64,000 nt of DNA from Deltaproteobacteria bacterium (GTDB taxonomy: Bacteria; Myxococcota_A; UBA9042). Under the pieces are notes generated by a model. It made no database searches. It saw only the letters and a list, made by a program, of their open reading frames with translations, and was not told the DNA's origin. The translations under genes were made by a program, and so were the position numbers. Shown here piece by piece: positions 54,249-64,000 of this stretch; position 1 is the first letter of the stretch; the number at the start of each line of letters is the position of its first letter. The DNA lies in the NCBI GenBank assembly GCA_016875335.1, contig VGRO01000007.1, positions 1 to 64,000 of the forward strand, read 5' to 3'.

Positions 54249-56243
54249 ATGGCGAAAACGCAAGACAAGATCGCTCCCGCTGCGGACCGTCCGGAGCGCG
54301 CCAGGTTCGCGGCTCCAGTGGGGCTCTTGAGCGGCGCTGGTGCGCTGGTGTGGCTGTCGGTCGCGGGCGCCTTCTCCGGCGGCCTGCAATCGTGCGACTA
54401 CTCGGCGCGCTTTGCCCTGGATGACCTGAAATTTCAGACGGTGCAGGTGGTGTCGGCCTTCCCGGCTTTCATCGATCCCAACACCAACGCGATCACGCGC
54501 GTGTGCGGTGTGCCGCTGCGCGACGACAACGGCGATCTGCTGCCCGGCGAGACCGACAAGGAGCCCAACGGCGTCGAGTTGACCGTCAACCTGGTGTCGA
54601 CCGATCCCAACGCGCGCGTGGTCAAGCCCAAGTGCGTCGGCGAGAAGGACTACAGCGTCAAGGAAGGCGACCGCATCGAGTCGCAGCCGCTGTCCACCAG
54701 CAAGGACCTGCAGACCGTCAAGCCCGGCCAATTCAAGATGACGCTGTCGTGCTACGAACCGCACGCGACGACCAGCGCCAAGAACGACTGCGCGGGAGGC
54801 GGCGAGAACGCGACGCTTTTCGCCAAGGCCGCCTACTACCGCCGCGAGGCGTTCGGCTGCGACGCCTTCAAGCCCGATACCGCGCAGAACGTCGCCCTGG
54901 TGGTGGACCACTCGGGGTCGGTCAGCGGCTTCGTCTCCATGGACCAGAAAAAGGTCGCCGACTCGAGCAAGTTTGCGGAGGACCTGCCGGGCACGGTCGT
55001 CAACACCGCCTTCAAGGACGCGGCCTCCGACCCCTTCTTTGTGCTGGAAGAGGGCGCCAAGCTGCTCATCGAGCAGTTGAACACCCACGATCGCGTCGTG
55101 TCGCTGGGCTTTGACGAAACCAATCAGGTCTACGCGGCGTGCGCAACAAACCTCGTCTGCCAGCAGGACGACGGCAACGCGGTGGAGAACTCGACGTGCC
55201 TGCTCGACACTGACTGTGCCAAGAAACACGGCCCCGGCCTGAAGTGCGCGGCGCACCCGTCGCTCGAAAAGGACCCAATCCTCCCATTGCCGCTGACCGA
55301 CGGCTTGAAGTACTGTTACGGATCTGCACAAAAGACCAAGCTCTACAACAAGTACGGCCTCGATCTCAAGGCCAAGTACAGCGCCAACGGCAGGGCGCCC
55401 GTGTACGAATCCCTGGTCAGTGCCTACGACTTTCTGCGCACGGCCGGCCCCGGCGCGCCCGACCCGATTCGCGGCGGCAACGCCAAGCACATGGTCCTGC
55501 TGACGGACGGGCCGGACACCTGCACGGCCAACGACAACTTCCTCTACACGACGTTTGACCAGTTCAGCGGCAACGTGACCAAGGCCGGCGGTCAGTGCCG
55601 CCAGCCGTGCAAGTTCTCCACGGTCAACTACAAGGAACTGCTCAAGAAAATGGCGCAGGATCGCTTCCCCATCCACATCCACGTCATCCAGATCCAGTCG
55701 CTGGGCAAGCTGGCCCCTGACCCGACGCTGCAAGAGCTGGCGTGCCGGTCGCAGGGCACCTACCAGTTCCTGAACACTGCGGATTTCAACCGCAGCGACG
55801 CGTCGACGTGGCAAGAGACCATGACCCGCGCGATCCTCAAGGTCCGTTACGCGCTCGCCGGCCAGTGGCGCGCAGGTTTCCAGGACAACGGCTTCAAAGA
55901 CGGCGGCGCGGTCAAACGCGGTCTGATGTGGGCGGCGCGCGGACGGCTGACCATCAACAACGCGCTGTTCGCCTCGCTCGGTCAGGTGTTCGAGTCCGGC
56001 TTTGAAAAGGAATGGCGGTTCGAGCTGCTCGACGGCGGCCGCGATGCGCGCCTGACGTTCCGGTTGGCGTGCCAGAGCGACGCCGACTGCGGCGGTGGCA
56101 AAGAGTGCGCCACGAGCTCCTGCGGACCGGACGGGTTGTGCCGCACGGCCAACGCCCCCGATCTGTCGCCGTGCGGTGAGGCCGGCAAGAGCAAGTGCTG
56201 CAAAGGCGCCTGCGATGCCAAGTGCGACGGCGTGTGCAAGTAG
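54249..56243 (+). CDS. VWA-domain Cys-rich lipoprotein, CglB-like
   Basis: Lipobox-like GGLQSCDYS; MIDAS VALVVDHSGSVSG; KHMVLLTDGPDTC; Cys-rich C-terminus CQSDADCGGGKECATSSCGPDGLC. Confidence 0.7.
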   Translation: MAKTQDKIAPAADRPERARFAAPVGLLSGAGALVWLSVAGAFSGGLQSCDYSARFALDDLKFQTVQVVSAFPAFIDPNTNAITRVCGVPLRDDNGDLLPGETDKEPNGVELTVNLVSTDPNARVVKPKCVGEKDYSVKEGDRIESQPLSTSKDLQTVKPGQFKMTLSCYEPHATTSAKNDCAGGGENATLFAKAAYYRREAFGCDAFKPDTAQNVALVVDHSGSVSGFVSMDQKKVADSSKFAEDLPGTVVNTAFKDAASDPFFVLEEGAKLLIEQLNTHDRVVSLGFDETNQVYAACATNLVCQQDDGNAVENSTCLLDTDCAKKHGPGLKCAAHPSLEKDPILPLPLTDGLKYCYGSAQKTKLYNKYGLDLKAKYSANGRAPVYESLVSAYDFLRTAGPGAPDPIRGGNAKHMVLLTDGPDTCTANDNFLYTTFDQFSGNVTKAGGQCRQPCKFSTVNYKELLKKMAQDRFPIHIHVIQIQSLGKLAPDPTLQELACRSQGTYQFLNTADFNRSDASTWQETMTRAILKVRYALAGQWRAGFQDNGFKDGGAVKRGLMWAARGRLTINNALFASLGQVFESGFEKEWRFELLDGGRDARLTFRLACQSDADCGGGKECATSSCGPDGLCRTANAPDLSPCGEAGKSKCCKGACDAKCDGVCK

Positions 56244-56314
56244 GTTCGTTTCTTGTTCGCGGTGGCACGGTCAATCGGCCACATGTCCCACAGGCCCAAG
56301 GGGGGCCCAACCTG

Positions 56315-57052
56315 ATGCGCAACTCCACCCACCGGCTGTCCCGCCGCCTCGCCCTGGCCCTGGGCTCCCTTGCGCTGGCGCTGTCCGCGTTGCCTGTCGC
56401 TCACGCCGAAGAGGCCGTGGATCGCGAACTCGCCAAGTATTGGGACGCTGAAATCGCCGTGCCGTCGCTCAGCAACCCGCTGTACGAGCGGCGTCATGGC
56501 GTCGAGGGCGAGGTGCACTACGGCATCGTACCCAACGACAACTTCTATCTTTTCCAAAGCGTGGGCGGTCGCGTCGACTTCTACCTGACCGACACCGTCG
56601 CCCTGGACGCCGACTTCTCGTACATGATGGCCAAGGAGTCGAAAATCCTGGACTTCCTCAAGCACGTCGACACCAGCGGCGGCAAGCAGACCAACCTGAC
56701 CATCGGGTCCCAGCAACCGCCACGGCTCAACTGGATGAGTTCGGTCGGCGTCGCTTTCAGCCCATTTCACGGCAAGTTCGGAATTTTCGACAAGAAGCTC
56801 AGCAGCTTCGACGTCAACTTCCACCTGGGCTTGGGCATCCTGAGCGCCGAAGTCGACGAATCGCAGGGCAACAAGCCCCCGGCCTCGGCGATCAAGGTCG
56901 GCGGCGCCTGGGGCATCGGCTTCCGATTCTTCCTGACACGGTTCCTCAACATCCGGGTGGACTACAAGCAGACCATCTACCATCCGCAAGAGAGCATCGC
57001 GTTTCTGGCGCCCGTCGAGTTCTCGGCCGGCATCGGTTTCCTGAGCAAGTAG
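56315..57052 (+). CDS. Outer-membrane beta-barrel protein (OMP_myx_plus/GltA-GltB-like)
   Basis: Signal peptide ...LSALPVAHAEE; YGIVPNDNFYLFQSVGGRVDFYLTDTVALDADFSY alternating barrel strands. Confidence 0.65.
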   Translation: MRNSTHRLSRRLALALGSLALALSALPVAHAEEAVDRELAKYWDAEIAVPSLSNPLYERRHGVEGEVHYGIVPNDNFYLFQSVGGRVDFYLTDTVALDADFSYMMAKESKILDFLKHVDTSGGKQTNLTIGSQQPPRLNWMSSVGVAFSPFHGKFGIFDKKLSSFDVNFHLGLGILSAEVDESQGNKPPASAIKVGGAWGIGFRFFLTRFLNIRVDYKQTIYHPQESIAFLAPVEFSAGIGFLSK

Positions 57053-57126
57053 CGGCGAACGGCGCTTCGCACGCGACACGGCGCCTTGGGCGCAGGCTGC
57101 CGGTTGGTCCGGCACGCAAGGTGGAC

Positions 57127-58071
57127 ATGCACAACACGACGATCTCCCGCGGACGCCTATGCGGTCTGGTCTTGGCCTTGGCTTCGTTGCCGGCGGCAGC
57201 CTGGGCCGACGACCCCCCTGCCGATGCACCCAAAGCCGATCCGGCCCCCGCTTCCCCCGCCACCGAACCGGCGCCCGAACCCGTGGCCGACCCGAAGCCT
57301 GACCCGGCGCCCGCCGAGCCCAAGGTCGACCCGGTCAAGCCCGAAACCAAAGGCAAGTCCGCGACGATGCCCGATCTTGGCGGCAGCGCGGCCGACCAGG
57401 ACATCTACGGCATCAGCGATGATCTGGTGCCGCCTGGTTCGCGCTTGGACTGGGCCAAGAAGCGCGACATCAAGGTCGTGCAGAAGCGCGCCGTGGTCAA
57501 AGACGGCCGCCACGGCATGTCGCTGCTCATCGGCGCCGTGCCCAACGACGATTTCTGGACCTACATCTCGGCGGGCCTCGGCTACAACTACTATTTTTCC
57601 GAGGACCTGGCGCTCAACGTCCACGGCATCTATACCTACAACCAGGCCACCTCGTTGCGGACCAAACTCGAAGGCCAGCGGCCCGAGGGCTTCGAACTGA
57701 CCGTGCGTTTGCCGCAGACCCTGACCGCCTACGCATCCGCCGGCGTGGACTGGAACCTGCTGCACGGCAAGATCGGTTTTTTTGGCACGATGCTCGGCGA
57801 GTTCGACGTCGCGCTGTGCTTTGGCGTCGGCGCGGTGATGAGCAAGGTCACCACCCAGGAGCAGCCCCAGGGCGCCCAGCGCATCGACGCCGCGGGCAAC
57901 GCCGGGGCTTCCGCGCAGTTCTACCTGTCCGAGCACTTTGCCCTGCGCGCCGACTACCACCAGCTTTTCTACCCCAAATTCAACGATCGGACCAAAGTGG
58001 CCGACGCCGGCCTGGCCCATCCGCTGTCGGTCGTCATCGGCCTGACCTACTTCACCAGCCCGCCGCTCTAG
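57127..58071 (+). CDS. Outer-membrane beta-barrel protein paralogous to the preceding one, with Pro/Ala-rich N-terminal linker
   Basis: Signal peptide GLVLALASLPAAAWA; linker DPPADAPKADPAPASPATEP; IGAVPNDDFWTYISAGLGYNYYFSEDLALNVHGIY matches the 56315 product pattern. Confidence 0.65.
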   Translation: MHNTTISRGRLCGLVLALASLPAAAWADDPPADAPKADPAPASPATEPAPEPVADPKPDPAPAEPKVDPVKPETKGKSATMPDLGGSAADQDIYGISDDLVPPGSRLDWAKKRDIKVVQKRAVVKDGRHGMSLLIGAVPNDDFWTYISAGLGYNYYFSEDLALNVHGIYTYNQATSLRTKLEGQRPEGFELTVRLPQTLTAYASAGVDWNLLHGKIGFFGTMLGEFDVALCFGVGAVMSKVTTQEQPQGAQRIDAAGNAGASAQFYLSEHFALRADYHQLFYPKFNDRTKVADAGLAHPLSVVIGLTYFTSPPL

Positions 58072-58149
58072 CCCTGTCGCCCTCGCCGGCAGACCGCGCA
58101 CGCAAACCGCGCGTCTGCCGCCCTTGGTCCCGCGCCTTCCGGAGGCCCC

Positions 58150-60111
58150 ATGATCGTGACCCCGACCGCCCTGCGCCGCCTCGCTTCGGCTGCCCTCGCC
58201 ACCGTGGTGTTCGCCACCGCGGCGCCCTGTTGGGCCATCACGCTCGATCAGGTGTTCGTGCTGCTCGAATCCGAAGTGCCCGACGACACGATCATCAAGA
58301 AGATCCAGAAGGACGCCAGCAAGTTCAACCTCGGCCCCAAGGAGATCATGGAGCTCAAGCGCCGCGGCGCGTCGGCAAAGCTCATCCAATTCATCATCTC
58401 GACTGCGTCGGCGTCCGCGGCCAAGCCCACCGACGGCGCCGCCAAGCCGCCGGAGAAGAAGCCGGAGCGCGAACTGAGCGAAGCGGAAAAGGCCGCCGAA
58501 GAAGCGCGCCTCAAAGAGGAATCGCTGCGCATCCTCGAAGAGCAGAAGAAGCGCGAAGAGGCGGGCCGCCGCATGTTCGCAGGCAAGGTCCTGGCCGCCG
58601 GGCAGAACTACGCCAACAACGGTGAATTCGTCAAAGCCATCCAAACCTTCACCAAGTTCGTCGAAGAAGGTGTCGACGGCGTGGCGTTCGCGCCCGACTC
58701 GGCGGAGGCGTACAGCGCCAAGTACGGCATCGCCAATGCCCTGGCCCGCGCAGGCCTCATCCAATCGGCCGCCGACACCTTGCTCGACGTGGTGCGCGCC
58801 GGCAGCGACAAGCTGTTCTTCACGCAAGCCTTCATGCAGTTGCGTGACCTTCGCAAGCTCATCATCTACCGGCCGCCCGAGTTGGAAGAGCTGACCAAAC
58901 TGACCGTCACGGCGTTCGACCAGGCCTTCCAGGACAGCTACTACTACCTGGTCGGCGAGGCGCTCAACGACTTCGGCGTCAAGGATCAATCGCGGCCCTA
59001 CCTGGAAAAAGTGACCGGCAAGTCCAAGGAGTACCCGCGTGCACAGTACCTGATCGGCCTGATGTCGATTCCCGACAACCCCGAGGAGAAGCTGGGCGGC
59101 GCCCAGGTCAAGGAGGCGTCCGAGGCGTTTCAGAAGGCCGTGCTCGCCGCCGAAGTGCAGACCGAGGGCCGACCGGTCGTCGATCTCGCCTACCTCGCCT
59201 TGGCGCGATTGGCCTACGACATCCAACAGTTCGACGCGGCCATCTACTACTACAAGAAGATCAGCAAAAGTTCGCCCAAGCTCGCGACCGCCTTCTACGA
59301 ATCGGGCTGGACCTACTTCCTCAAGGGCGACGTTTCGCGGGCGCTCGGCACGTTCCACGCCCTGCACAGTCCCTATTTCGCACACCAGTTCTATCCGGAA
59401 TTGTGGGTGCTCGAGGCCACGGCGTACGTCAACCTCTGCCACGCCGACAAGGCCGAGGCGGCGATGAAGATGTTTGAGGAGAAGGTGTTCGTCCTCGGGC
59501 CGCCGCTGCGCGACTTCCTCAAGCGATCGCGCAAGCCTGAGGAGTTCTACAACAACTTCCTGGCCGCGGTGAGCAACCCCAAGGGCGGCGCTGGCCTGCC
59601 GCGCGCCCTGCAGTCGCCGGTGCTGAGCAACGTCGAATTCTACAACTTGCACCAGACCGTCAGGCAGATCGACAAGGAAGAGAAGGTGTTGCGCGAAAAC
59701 CTCGCAGCGCTCGGTCCGGTCGGCCAGGAGTTGCTGCAAAAGCTCGGCCAGCGCCGCACCGAACGGGTATCCGAAGCCGGCGTGGTCATCCAGCAGACAC
59801 TGCGCCAGACCCAGAAGGAGCTCGACCTGTACTTCGACAAGCTGCAGCAGCTGCGCCTGGACCTCGACGAGATCCGCACCCAGGAAATCGAGGACGAGCA
59901 AGCCGGCCGCGCCAAGGAGCTCGCCGATTCCGTCCAGAAGGAGGGCGCCATCGCCATTGCAGGTTCCGACTCGATGTCGTGGCCGTTCGAGGGCGAATTC
60001 TGGAAGGACGAGATCGGCGCCTACCGGTCGTTCCTGCGCACCAAGTGCAAGCAGGAGAACAAATTGGGGCAGTATCGCCCGAAGTTTTTGCAATTGGCAG
60101 GCGCGCGCTAG
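58150..60111 (+). CDS. Exported TPR protein (GltE/AglT-like)
   Basis: Signal peptide; LDQVFVLLESEVPDDTIIKKIQKDASKFNLGPKEIMELKRRGASAKLIQFI; TPR array; C-terminal SMSWPFEGEFWKDEIGAYRSFLRTKC. Confidence 0.6.
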   Translation: MIVTPTALRRLASAALATVVFATAAPCWAITLDQVFVLLESEVPDDTIIKKIQKDASKFNLGPKEIMELKRRGASAKLIQFIISTASASAAKPTDGAAKPPEKKPERELSEAEKAAEEARLKEESLRILEEQKKREEAGRRMFAGKVLAAGQNYANNGEFVKAIQTFTKFVEEGVDGVAFAPDSAEAYSAKYGIANALARAGLIQSAADTLLDVVRAGSDKLFFTQAFMQLRDLRKLIIYRPPELEELTKLTVTAFDQAFQDSYYYLVGEALNDFGVKDQSRPYLEKVTGKSKEYPRAQYLIGLMSIPDNPEEKLGGAQVKEASEAFQKAVLAAEVQTEGRPVVDLAYLALARLAYDIQQFDAAIYYYKKISKSSPKLATAFYESGWTYFLKGDVSRALGTFHALHSPYFAHQFYPELWVLEATAYVNLCHADKAEAAMKMFEEKVFVLGPPLRDFLKRSRKPEEFYNNFLAAVSNPKGGAGLPRALQSPVLSNVEFYNLHQTVRQIDKEEKVLRENLAALGPVGQELLQKLGQRRTERVSEAGVVIQQTLRQTQKELDLYFDKLQQLRLDLDEIRTQEIEDEQAGRAKELADSVQKEGAIAIAGSDSMSWPFEGEFWKDEIGAYRSFLRTKCKQENKLGQYRPKFLQLAGAR

Positions 60112-60159
60112 CCGCCAGCGCCGCCAGACAGGAACCCAGCGCCGTCAGGCAGGACCACC

Positions 60160-63100
60160 ATGATGCATTGCAAGCAACTGCTGCGCCTCGGCGCCGCGAC
60201 GATCGTCACGCTGTCGGCGACGTATGCGCACGCCCAGGCCGACGAGGACATCGAGGCCGGCTCGGCCACCAAGAAGGTGGACAAGAAAGAGTCGCTGGTC
60301 GAGGAAGAAAAGAAGAAAGCCGCGCCCAAGCCCAAGCGCGACGAAGACAAGTTGCAGACCGGTGGCTTTGAGGTCGAGAAATTCGACCAGTTGGGCTTCA
60401 GCGACAAGGTCCGCGCCCAGGAGATGGAAAAATCCAAGATCCGCCAGCGCACCATCAAGACCATCGAGTCGCTGCTCGAGCGCGCCGCGCCCGGCGACCC
60501 CAACCGCCCCGAGTACTACTTCCGCCTCGCCGAAGCGTGGTGGGAAGAGACGCGCTTTGAGTACTTGGTCGAGATGGCCAAGCACAACAAGGACCTGGAG
60601 CAGTTCGAAAAAGGCATCCTGAAGGAAAAGCCGGTGCAGCCGGTCGAGAACTACGCCAAAGCCATCGGCTTTTACGAGAAGATCCTGCAGCAGCACCCGA
60701 CCTACGGCCGCATGGCCGAGGTGCTGTACCGGCTCGGCAAGGCGGCGATGCAGCAGGGCAAGGCGCTCGGCGACAAGGTGTTGAGCCAAAAAGGCGTGCA
60801 GTACCTCAACAGGCTCATCCAGAACCACCAGACCAGCCCGCTCATCCCCAAGGCGCACCTGGCCCTGGCCGAGTATTTCTTCGAGGCCAACAACCTGACC
60901 CTGGCCAAGATGAACTACGAGAAAATCACCCAGAACTACAAGAAGAGCGAGCTGTTCAACTACGCCCTCTACAAGCTCGGCTGGGTGTACTACAACCTGC
61001 GCGAGTTCCAGCGCACCATCGAGACCTTCCAGCAAGTGGTCAAAGAGATTGGCGCGAGCGCGGGCGCCAAGGAGCGTGGCAGCATCGAGTTCCGCGACCA
61101 GGCGCTCAAGGATCTGGTGCAGGCCTATGCGGAACTGGACGGCGCGTGGCCCAAGGCCGAGGCCTACTTCACCGAGGTCGAAGGCGAAGCCAAGATGTGG
61201 GAACGGCTTTTCAAGCTGGCCGAGATCTACATCTCGATCGACAAGGACAAGGACGCCACCGACCTGCTGACCCACTTCATCGAGAAGCGCCCGACCGACC
61301 CCCGCTGCGTCGACTGGCACGAATCGATCGTCGACGTTTACAAGAAGCTTGGCGCCTTCCCCGACATCGAAGCAGCGATGCGCAAATTCCTGGCCTTCAG
61401 CGACGCGCGCACCTCGCCGTGGGTCGCCGCGCTCAAGGGCAAGAAGGACGGCAAGTCCAGCGAGGCATTGGACAAGGCCGACAAGATGGGCGAGACCTAC
61501 CTCTTGTTCATCTCGAACTACTACCACCAGTTGGCGCAAAAGACCGAGGAAGAGACCAAGGACGCCGAAAAGGCGCGCGGTTTCTACGCCAAGGCCGTCG
61601 CCGACTACGAAGAATTCATGCGCCGCTGGCCCAACGCCAAGAAGACCTACGTCGTCAGCTTCTACGCCGCGGAAATCTACTACGACTTCCTCAAGGATTT
61701 CGACAAGGCGCGCAAATCCTACGAGCGCACGATCCGACTGGACCCCGAGGGTGAATTCCTCGAAGACGCAGCGCTCGGCGTCATCTACTCCACCGAGGAG
61801 TTGATGCGCAACAAGCGCGCCTGCTGGCTCGACAAGGACCAGAAGTGGGTCGAGCGCCCCGACTGTCCGCCGTTGGTGGCGTCGGTGGCGGGCGACGGCG
61901 TCAAGGTCACCAAGTTCAAGACGGCCAAGAAAGAGGAGTTGACCGAAGAGCAGATCAAGGGCGCCAACCTGCCCAAGGCGCGCCAGGAACTGCACGAACT
62001 CGAAAAGAGCTACGTGGCCGCCGCCGACAAGTACGTCGAGTTGATGGAGCGGTCCAAGGCCGATTGCGCCGCGGGCAAGAAGAAGATGTGCGGCAAGGGC
62101 AAGAAGGTGCCAGAGATCATGTACCTGGCCGCATCGGCCTACTACGACCGTGGCCAGTACAAAGAGGCGATCAGCGGCTACGAGCGGGTGTACAAATACC
62201 AGGAAGACAACAAGGTCGCCGAGATCGCCGTCAAGACCCTCATCGACATCTACGCGCGCCTCAAGGAGTGGCCCAAGATCGAGGAGTGGGCTGAACTGAT
62301 GCTCAAGCGCAAGAACCGCTTGATCCTCGACCCCAAGGATCTCAAGAAATACGTGGCGGTGGCAGTGGCCGAACAGGCGCGCGAGCTGGCCGACAAGAAG
62401 GACTACGACGGCGCCCACGCCAAGTACGACAAGATCCTGGCGCGTTTCAAGAGCGAGGAGCCGGAGCTGGCGGCGGTGGCCCTGTACAACAAGGCGCTCA
62501 TCTACGAGCTGCAGCAGCAGGACAAGACGGCCATCGAAACCTACGAGCGCGTGGTCAAGGAGTTCCCCAAGGCCAAGGTGGCGCCCGAGGCCAAGTTCAA
62601 CGTGGGCTTGCTCTACGAGGCGATGACCAACTTCCGCGAAGCCGCCGACGCGTTCCTGGACATGGCCAAGTTCCGCGACAACGCCGATGCCGCCCAGGCG
62701 CTCATCAATGCCGGCACCATCCTTGTCGCTCTCAACCAGTACAAAGACGCCGCGGCGGCCTACGACAAGTTCATCGGCGTCGCCAACAACCTCAAGGGCG
62801 ACGACGAAAAGACCAAACGCCTCAAAGGCCTGGTCGCAGACGCCGAGATGGAGAAGGGGCACGTGTTCGACCGGATGGGCACCGAGGGCGCCAAGCAGGC
62901 CGCCGCAGCGTATGCCGCGGTGGTGACCAAGTATCCTGCCCGCCCCGACCTGCACGTCGAAGCCCTGTCGCGCAAGGTCGAGACCCTGCGGCTGGCGGAC
63001 GCTGGCAAGAACCGCAAGGACGTCGTGCGCGCAGCCGACGACGCCAGCAAGGCCTACGACAACGCCCGCAGCAAGGACAACGACAAGCCCGACGTCCGCA

Positions 63101-63750
63101 AGGGCAACGCTGGCGTATGGGCGGCCCAGGCGATGTTCTACAAGTCCGAGTACCTGTTCGACGATTTCGACGTGCTGACGCTCAAGACCGTCAAGAACAT
63201 GAAGGGCCTCATCCCTACGCTGCAAAAGAAGGCCGAAGCGCTCAAGAAGGCCGAGGCCGAATACTTCAGGGTGTTCGACCAAGCTGCGGCCGGCGGCGGT
63301 CGCGGCTGGGCGGCGGCGGCCATGTTCCGCGTGGGCTTGCTGTACTACAACTTCAAGGAAGACCTGTTCAAGGCGCCGGTGCCGCCGGAGGTCGAACGCT
63401 TCCCCGACCTGGCCGATCAGTACAAGCTGGCCATCGAACAGAAAGCGGTGCCCATCGAAGAGCAGTCGCTTGCCGCCTTGGGCAATGCCATCAAGATCGC
63501 CCACAACCTGGGCGTCTACAACAAGTGGAGCAAGCTCGCTGGCGACTACGCGGCCAAGGTCAGCCCCGACGCCTATCCGACCGTCGAGAAGGACCCCAAC
63601 CTGCCCAAGGCCGCCGAGACCGTGTCCGCCAACGAATCGACCGACCCCGCGACGTCGGCAGCGTTCGTGACCACCGTGCGCCGCGGCAAATTCACCGTGT
63701 CGTACAAGCCCAAGGCCGCGGCACCCGCCGACGCCAAGGCCGGCAAGTAG
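60160..63750 (+). CDS. Large exported TPR protein (GltD/AgmU-like)
   Basis: 1196 aa; signal peptide LLRLGAATIVTLSATYAHAQA; extended TPR array (e.g. YYRLAEAWWEETRFEY, AKFNVGLLYEAMTNFREAADAFLDMAKF). Confidence 0.6.
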   Translation: MMHCKQLLRLGAATIVTLSATYAHAQADEDIEAGSATKKVDKKESLVEEEKKKAAPKPKRDEDKLQTGGFEVEKFDQLGFSDKVRAQEMEKSKIRQRTIKTIESLLERAAPGDPNRPEYYFRLAEAWWEETRFEYLVEMAKHNKDLEQFEKGILKEKPVQPVENYAKAIGFYEKILQQHPTYGRMAEVLYRLGKAAMQQGKALGDKVLSQKGVQYLNRLIQNHQTSPLIPKAHLALAEYFFEANNLTLAKMNYEKITQNYKKSELFNYALYKLGWVYYNLREFQRTIETFQQVVKEIGASAGAKERGSIEFRDQALKDLVQAYAELDGAWPKAEAYFTEVEGEAKMWERLFKLAEIYISIDKDKDATDLLTHFIEKRPTDPRCVDWHESIVDVYKKLGAFPDIEAAMRKFLAFSDARTSPWVAALKGKKDGKSSEALDKADKMGETYLLFISNYYHQLAQKTEEETKDAEKARGFYAKAVADYEEFMRRWPNAKKTYVVSFYAAEIYYDFLKDFDKARKSYERTIRLDPEGEFLEDAALGVIYSTEELMRNKRACWLDKDQKWVERPDCPPLVASVAGDGVKVTKFKTAKKEELTEEQIKGANLPKARQELHELEKSYVAAADKYVELMERSKADCAAGKKKMCGKGKKVPEIMYLAASAYYDRGQYKEAISGYERVYKYQEDNKVAEIAVKTLIDIYARLKEWPKIEEWAELMLKRKNRLILDPKDLKKYVAVAVAEQARELADKKDYDGAHAKYDKILARFKSEEPELAAVALYNKALIYELQQQDKTAIETYERVVKEFPKAKVAPEAKFNVGLLYEAMTNFREAADAFLDMAKFRDNADAAQALINAGTILVALNQYKDAAAAYDKFIGVANNLKGDDEKTKRLKGLVADAEMEKGHVFDRMGTEGAKQAAAAYAAVVTKYPARPDLHVEALSRKVETLRLADAGKNRKDVVRAADDASKAYDNARSKDNDKPDVRKGNAGVWAAQAMFYKSEYLFDDFDVLTLKTVKNMKGLIPTLQKKAEALKKAEAEYFRVFDQAAAGGGRGWAAAAMFRVGLLYYNFKEDLFKAPVPPEVERFPDLADQYKLAIEQKAVPIEEQSLAALGNAIKIAHNLGVYNKWSKLAGDYAAKVSPDAYPTVEKDPNLPKAAETVSANESTDPATSAAFVTTVRRGKFTVSYKPKAAAPADAKAGK

Positions 63751-63768
63751 GACAGGGAGGCCACGACC

Positions 63769-64000
63769 ATGAAAACCCGTTTGCTCGTTGCGGTCGCCGC
63801 CGCCAGCCTCAGTGCCGCGTTGCCGGTCTGCCCCGTCGTTGCCCAGGAGTACCTCGGAGGCATCGACAACAAGGCGCAGGACGCCATGCGGGCCGGCCTG
63901 TCGCACGCCCTGCGCGCCGTGCCCAAGTGCAGCCCCTACCGCATCCTCGACAATGGGGGCTGCTGTCCCAGTGGCTTCGTGTCCATCGGCGCCTCGTGCG
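63769..64000 (+). CDS. Exported Cys-containing protein, 5' part; runs off window end
   Basis: MKTRLLVAVAAASLSAALPVCPVVAQEYLGGIDNKAQDAMRAGLSHALRAVPKCSPYRILDNGGCCPSGFVSIGASC. Confidence 0.65.
   Translation, partial: MKTRLLVAVAAASLSAALPVCPVVAQEYLGGIDNKAQDAMRAGLSHALRAVPKCSPYRILDNGGCCPSGFVSIGASC

Follow-up and report, generated by a model that had tools for sequence, protein, structure and literature searches.

In Myxococcus xanthus, the Agl-Glt gliding machinery is encoded by several clusters: G1 carries gltD-J, G2 carries gltK, B, A and C, M1 carries aglRQS, and CglB serves as the adhesin. GltA, GltB and GltC bind one another directly (PMC4488436). CglB, which becomes unmasked at sites of adhesion, co-purifies with five gliding components of the outer membrane; the effectors of MglA include GltJ and AglR (PMC12288465). 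The genes nfsA-H form a single locus that is homologous to gltA-H, and the Agl motor can drive Nfs in place of Glt (PMC3858216). Extra glt-like clusters, namely G3 (which is nfs), G4 and G5, were reported in 2011 together with a second motor, M2; the function of G4, G5 and M2 in M. xanthus was unknown as of that report (PMC3169522).

A Glt-like cluster at the end of a contig

The window, that is, the whole stretch of DNA analysed here, comprises the first 64,000 bases of contig C7 from a metagenome-assembled genome (MAG) of 6.66 Mb that is 92% complete. Among its relatives in the family are MAGs from lakes and groundwater (Baikal, Erken, Umea and others), and MAGs of this family carry the labels Myxococcales, Deltaproteobacteria or Proteobacteria. 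The genes described in the original prediction are all present, co-directional and separated by gaps of only 18–78 bp, and uvrA lies upstream of them in divergent orientation. The cluster runs beyond the window up to the end of the contig at position 67119. When the contig was followed past 64000, the GltE-like gene was completed, and a GltF/CglF-like gene and a choice-of-anchor lipoprotein gene were found after it. The order on the + strand is as follows:

54249..56243 (+): VWA-domain putative outer-membrane lipoprotein (CglB-like), 664 aa; first gene of the cluster
56315..57052 (+): barrel 1 (GltA/GltB/NfsA/NfsB family), 245 aa; TIGR04565, 72 bits
57121..58071 (+): barrel 2 (GltA/GltB/NfsA/NfsB family), 316 aa; TIGR04565, 74.6 bits
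58150..60111 (+): GltC-like periplasmic TPR protein, 653 aa; assigned by NF033756 and the GltC tree
60160..63750 (+): GltD/AgmU-like periplasmic TPR protein, 1196 aa; assigned by TPR families and homology to System I GltD (see below)
63769..65838 (+; L009:13770-15839): GltE-like exported TPR protein, 689 aa; assigned by NF033758; the window holds 63769..64000
about 65926-66186 (+): GltF/CglF-like protein, 86 aa; assigned by the CglF model
66391-67119 (+; L009:16392-17120): choice-of-anchor lipoprotein, truncated where the contig ends

The proposal that these parts belong to the Glt/Nfs families was borne out by the GltC, OMP_myx_plus, GltE and CglF models, although every score against a Glt model lies below the NCBI equivalog cut-off. 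The 653-aa protein matches NF033756 (gliding_GltC) over nearly its full length (E 7.6e-52), with 177 bits against a cut-off of 450. The complete 689-aa protein matches NF033758 (gliding_GltE) with an E-value of 4.2e-21 (75 bits, cut-off 225), and the 86-aa protein matches the CglF/GltF model with an E-value of 8.3e-9 (35 bits, cut-off 90). These three proteins are thus homologous to their Myxococcus namesakes, yet fall short of equivalence. Two assignments had to be corrected: the TPR protein of about 650 aa, taken earlier for GltE/AglT, is GltC-like, and the gene cut by the window's edge, left unnamed as "Cys-containing", is GltE-like. The 1196-aa protein is recognized by models as a TPR protein only; its homologue in GltG-bearing clusters is GltD, and a PDB sequence search with it gave no match. 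In the window's family, the N-terminal part of GltE includes about 200 additional, Cys-rich residues, and no lipobox like that of other families is evident. Some genomes of this family have a second, degenerate GltF-like gene after GltF (L071:16638-16943, L072:1215-1520, L075:11576-11920).

The two barrels are related, as had been noted, with 30% identity, and both exceed the cut-off of TIGR04565 (OMP_myx_plus), so that the pair of GltA/GltB-type outer-membrane barrels characteristic of Glt is present. Barrel 2 has a Pro/Ala-rich stretch at its N-terminus. Its AlphaFold model contains eight strands, most of them with a pLDDT of about 90, and the best PDB match of the model is OmpA (E 3e-6).

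CglB is a surface lipoprotein with a MIDAS-bearing VWA domain, and the first gene here encodes a candidate of this kind. It has a lipobox-like ...GLQSC motif and 27 Cys, and its MIDAS consists of D220-x-S222-x-S224 (DHSGS) and D420 (TDG), residues that are invariant among six orthologues of the family. Its own Pfam match is weak, its fold model is poor (pLDDT 48, without a PDB match), and a PDB sequence search with it found nothing. Homologues at the same position in family f30, some of which measure 418-446 aa, score above the Pfam VWA cut-offs; in the large family f19, the MIDAS motif was not found in the protein at this position. The designation CglB-like rests on the predicted VWA domain, the gene position and the putative lipoprotein nature.

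Two types of cluster and their descent

This gene order was found again 18 times in the window's class and 23 times in other classes, which answers the proposed comparison of synteny across related genomes. Using HMMs derived from these loci, the clusters were split into two types. System II, to which the window belongs, has the order VWA-barrel(s)-GltC-D-E-F(-J). System I has the order (barrels)-GltC-D-E-F-GltG and no VWA gene (e.g., L062, L065 and L067). Both have homologous GltC, D, E and F; System I differs in having GltG (of the FHA type where checked) and in lacking GltJ and the VWA gene. Most sampled genomes with the window-type cluster also have a second GltC locus, and the two systems mostly coexist. 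In the window's genome System I is split, with GltC1-GltD1 on contig C2 and GltF-GltG on contig C88. The GltC-GltD pair on C2 (L061:6017-14644) adjoins two genes that, judged by eye, resemble M16-type peptidases, and no GltE is present there.

In the window's class, the VWA gene comes first in all 18 loci (some of them HMM seeds). In other classes, 13 of the 21 testable loci have a VWA homologue immediately before the barrels, and three more give weak matches. Over about 60 loci, the VWA HMM matched only the ORF directly 5' of the barrels in System II and gave no matches in System I loci. Because the gene order recurs and the VWA matches are restricted to this one position, the arrangement of the cluster is more than chance.

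System I scores higher against the Myxococcus models, with up to 482 bits for GltC, 403 for GltG and 89.5 for CglF. A GltC tree and a GltD tree each separate System II, as one clade with a support of 100, from the GltG-bearing clusters of System I, and the inner order of System II is much alike in the two. Both are quick trees, and some of their branches are long. The shared clade and the similar inner order point to an old, joint and mostly vertical descent of System II. The families are those named in the original prediction; however, the separate paralogous clade and the scores below the equivalog cut-offs mean that the cluster is assigned neither to Glt nor to Nfs proper.

System II loci have large lipoproteins as neighbours, on both sides in several families; these contain choice-of-anchor D / HYDIN-VesB Ig-like and PKD domains (the flanks of L071, L073, L075, L076 and L064, and the lipoprotein at 66391-67119 of contig C7). 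They are possible surface partners of the machine.

Nfs provides the closest comparison in layout. Like the window's cluster, it occupies one locus and has the A-B-C-D-E-F order with the same families. The parts do lie together here, as the original prediction stressed, but the arrangement is not new given that nfsA-H is already a single locus (PMC3858216). One alternative is an Nfs-like machine for surface polymers, by which a capsule or sheath polymer would be wound or transported, with the VWA protein binding the polymer or a partner. Nfs itself lacks GltI, GltJ and GltK and, together with the Agl motor, acts on the polymer of the spore coat (PMC3858216), and the Ig-like and choice-of-anchor lipoproteins on the flanks would suit such a role. 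However, no System II locus contains a GltG/NfsG-type gene, the VWA gene stands first in the window's cluster, and outside the window's class GltF is followed by GltJ rather than GltG; neither a VWA gene nor GltJ is found among nfsA-H. We consider this alternative doubtful.

Another possibility is that the cluster is an orthologue of M. xanthus G4 or G5, the clusters with the gltD homologues MXAN_1922 and MXAN_1327. Genomes with Systems I and II resemble M. xanthus in carrying extra glt-like paralogous clusters within one genome, and the extra clusters of M. xanthus are dispensable for motility (PMC3169522). System II may be the family of G4 or G5; we put orthology with one of them at only slightly less than an even chance. 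It is compatible with the explanation preferred below and, if true, would reduce the novelty of the cluster.

Motor, inner-membrane partners and MglA

The search for a motor elsewhere in the genome was successful. At C12:538-3072, a MotA/ExbB gene precedes two ExbD genes, which is the pattern of AglRQS (PF01618, 89.8 bits; PF02472, 40 and 48 bits). The search for Glt-type inner-membrane proteins gave two further candidates. A GltG-like protein on C88 (141 bits, far below the equivalog cut-off) is encoded next to the System I GltF, and no FHA domain was found in it. A GltJ-like protein on C114, likewise far below the equivalog cut-off and unlinked to the cluster, has the domains ZnR, GYF and SS_tail. 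The original prediction was to fall if the proteins belonged to unrelated families and the genome held no motor or Glt-type inner-membrane genes; instead, the motor trio, the GltG-like and the GltJ-like protein are all present.

GltJ directly follows GltF in 19 of 19 testable System II loci outside the window's class, and comparison with the AgmX structures 7zok and 7z3c confirmed the ZnR and GYF domains of this linked GltJ. Within the window's class, GltJ follows GltF in none of the 12 System II loci with enough downstream sequence, and in the window's family it is unlinked to the System II cluster. A loss of GltJ from this family was considered and rejected, as a profile of its N-terminal domains found the unlinked orthologue on C114. 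Since this protein groups with the linked GltJ, apart from other unlinked paralogues, GltJ is relocated rather than lost.

A GltG-type SS_tail protein in which a multi-TM N-terminus replaces FHA was seen in the related genome G001 (C203:7608-9401) and in the window's genome (G000:C160:6001-7794). In G001 and G009, an SS_tail protein is about 30–40 kb away from the System II cluster. A multi-TM SS_tail protein at this distance in related genomes was considered as a local transducer and set aside, as conserved linkage was not shown.

MglA was searched for with the M. xanthus sequence as the query; matches of 80-84% identity in several lineages suggest that the query letters are right. Every one of the 24 System II genomes from other classes has MglA (61-84% identity). 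At an identity of at least 60%, no match was present in the 29 genomes of the window's class, including the 13 of the window's family; distant Ras-like matches (28-39% identity) occur in two genomes of the class. The absence may represent a single event at the base of the class, and the comparison then counts as one contrast rather than 53 independent ones. Since the effectors of MglA in M. xanthus include GltJ and AglR and MglA is missing from the class, the window's machine must, by analogy, be controlled by something other than MglA or not be switched.

These results also bear on the alternative that the cluster is the ordinary gliding machinery of its lineage, in which focal adhesions would be loaded with the VWA protein and another polarity system would stand in for MglA. 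Several parts that a glider would use are there (the VWA adhesin, the barrels, GltC-D-E-F, the GltJ-like protein and the AglRQS-like trio), and the GltJ-like protein retains ZnR and GYF. However, MglA is needed for gliding in M. xanthus and is missing in 13 of 13 family genomes. We hold ordinary gliding to be rather unlikely.

A putative force-transmitting complex

The best explanation, which we hold to be fairly probable as a whole, is that the cluster encodes one half, in the outer membrane and periplasm, of a motor-coupled complex of the Glt/Nfs type, that this complex presents a VWA adhesin and is not controlled by MglA, and that System II is an ancient paralogue of both the Glt gliding and the Nfs spore-coat complexes of M. 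xanthus. The window shares with Agl-Glt the barrel pair, the GltC/D/E/F homologues and a predicted VWA lipoprotein, and its genome adds the GltJ-like (ZnR and GYF) protein and the AglRQS-like trio. In contrast to Agl-Glt, its proteins form a separate paralogous clade below the equivalog cut-offs, the VWA gene lies inside the cluster and, in the window's family, GltG and GltJ are unlinked and MglA is missing.

In this complex, a proton motor of the inner membrane would act through a GltJ/GltG-type transducer on GltD, GltE, GltC and the small GltF. We infer that the motor in question is the trio on C12. The periplasmic TPR proteins and GltF would engage both outer-membrane barrels, which in turn may hold the VWA lipoprotein and present it at the surface. 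The force of the motor could thereby reach a metal-dependent adhesin bound to a surface, a polymer or a partner cell. By analogy with M. xanthus, the parts and the gene order observed here should amount to an outer-membrane barrel/TPR unit that would display the VWA adhesin and take up force from the motor in the inner membrane. Since MglA is missing from the lineage, reversing gliding under the control of MglA is probably not what the machine does; it would be either a simpler glider or a conveyor of an adhesin or polymer.

A bolder and rather improbable proposal is that a class of mostly uncultured Myxococcota uses an MglA-independent, motor-driven conveyor that moves or tensions VWA adhesins, that the adhesin and GltJ belonged to the System II locus in the ancestor of the phylum, and that the M. 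xanthus glider later mixed parts of Systems I and II. No description of a VWA gene in such a cluster, or of a class that keeps the system without MglA, was found in the literature consulted, the scope of which did not include the main CglB and GltJ papers.

The cluster addresses two open questions, the origin of myxobacterial gliding and the role of the extra Glt-like clusters. A VWA adhesin gene here shares one locus with the genes of the barrel/TPR complex, which connects the two directly; in M. xanthus, this connection comes from biochemistry and genetics. Furthermore, natural genomes that keep the complex without MglA separate force transmission from polarity control.
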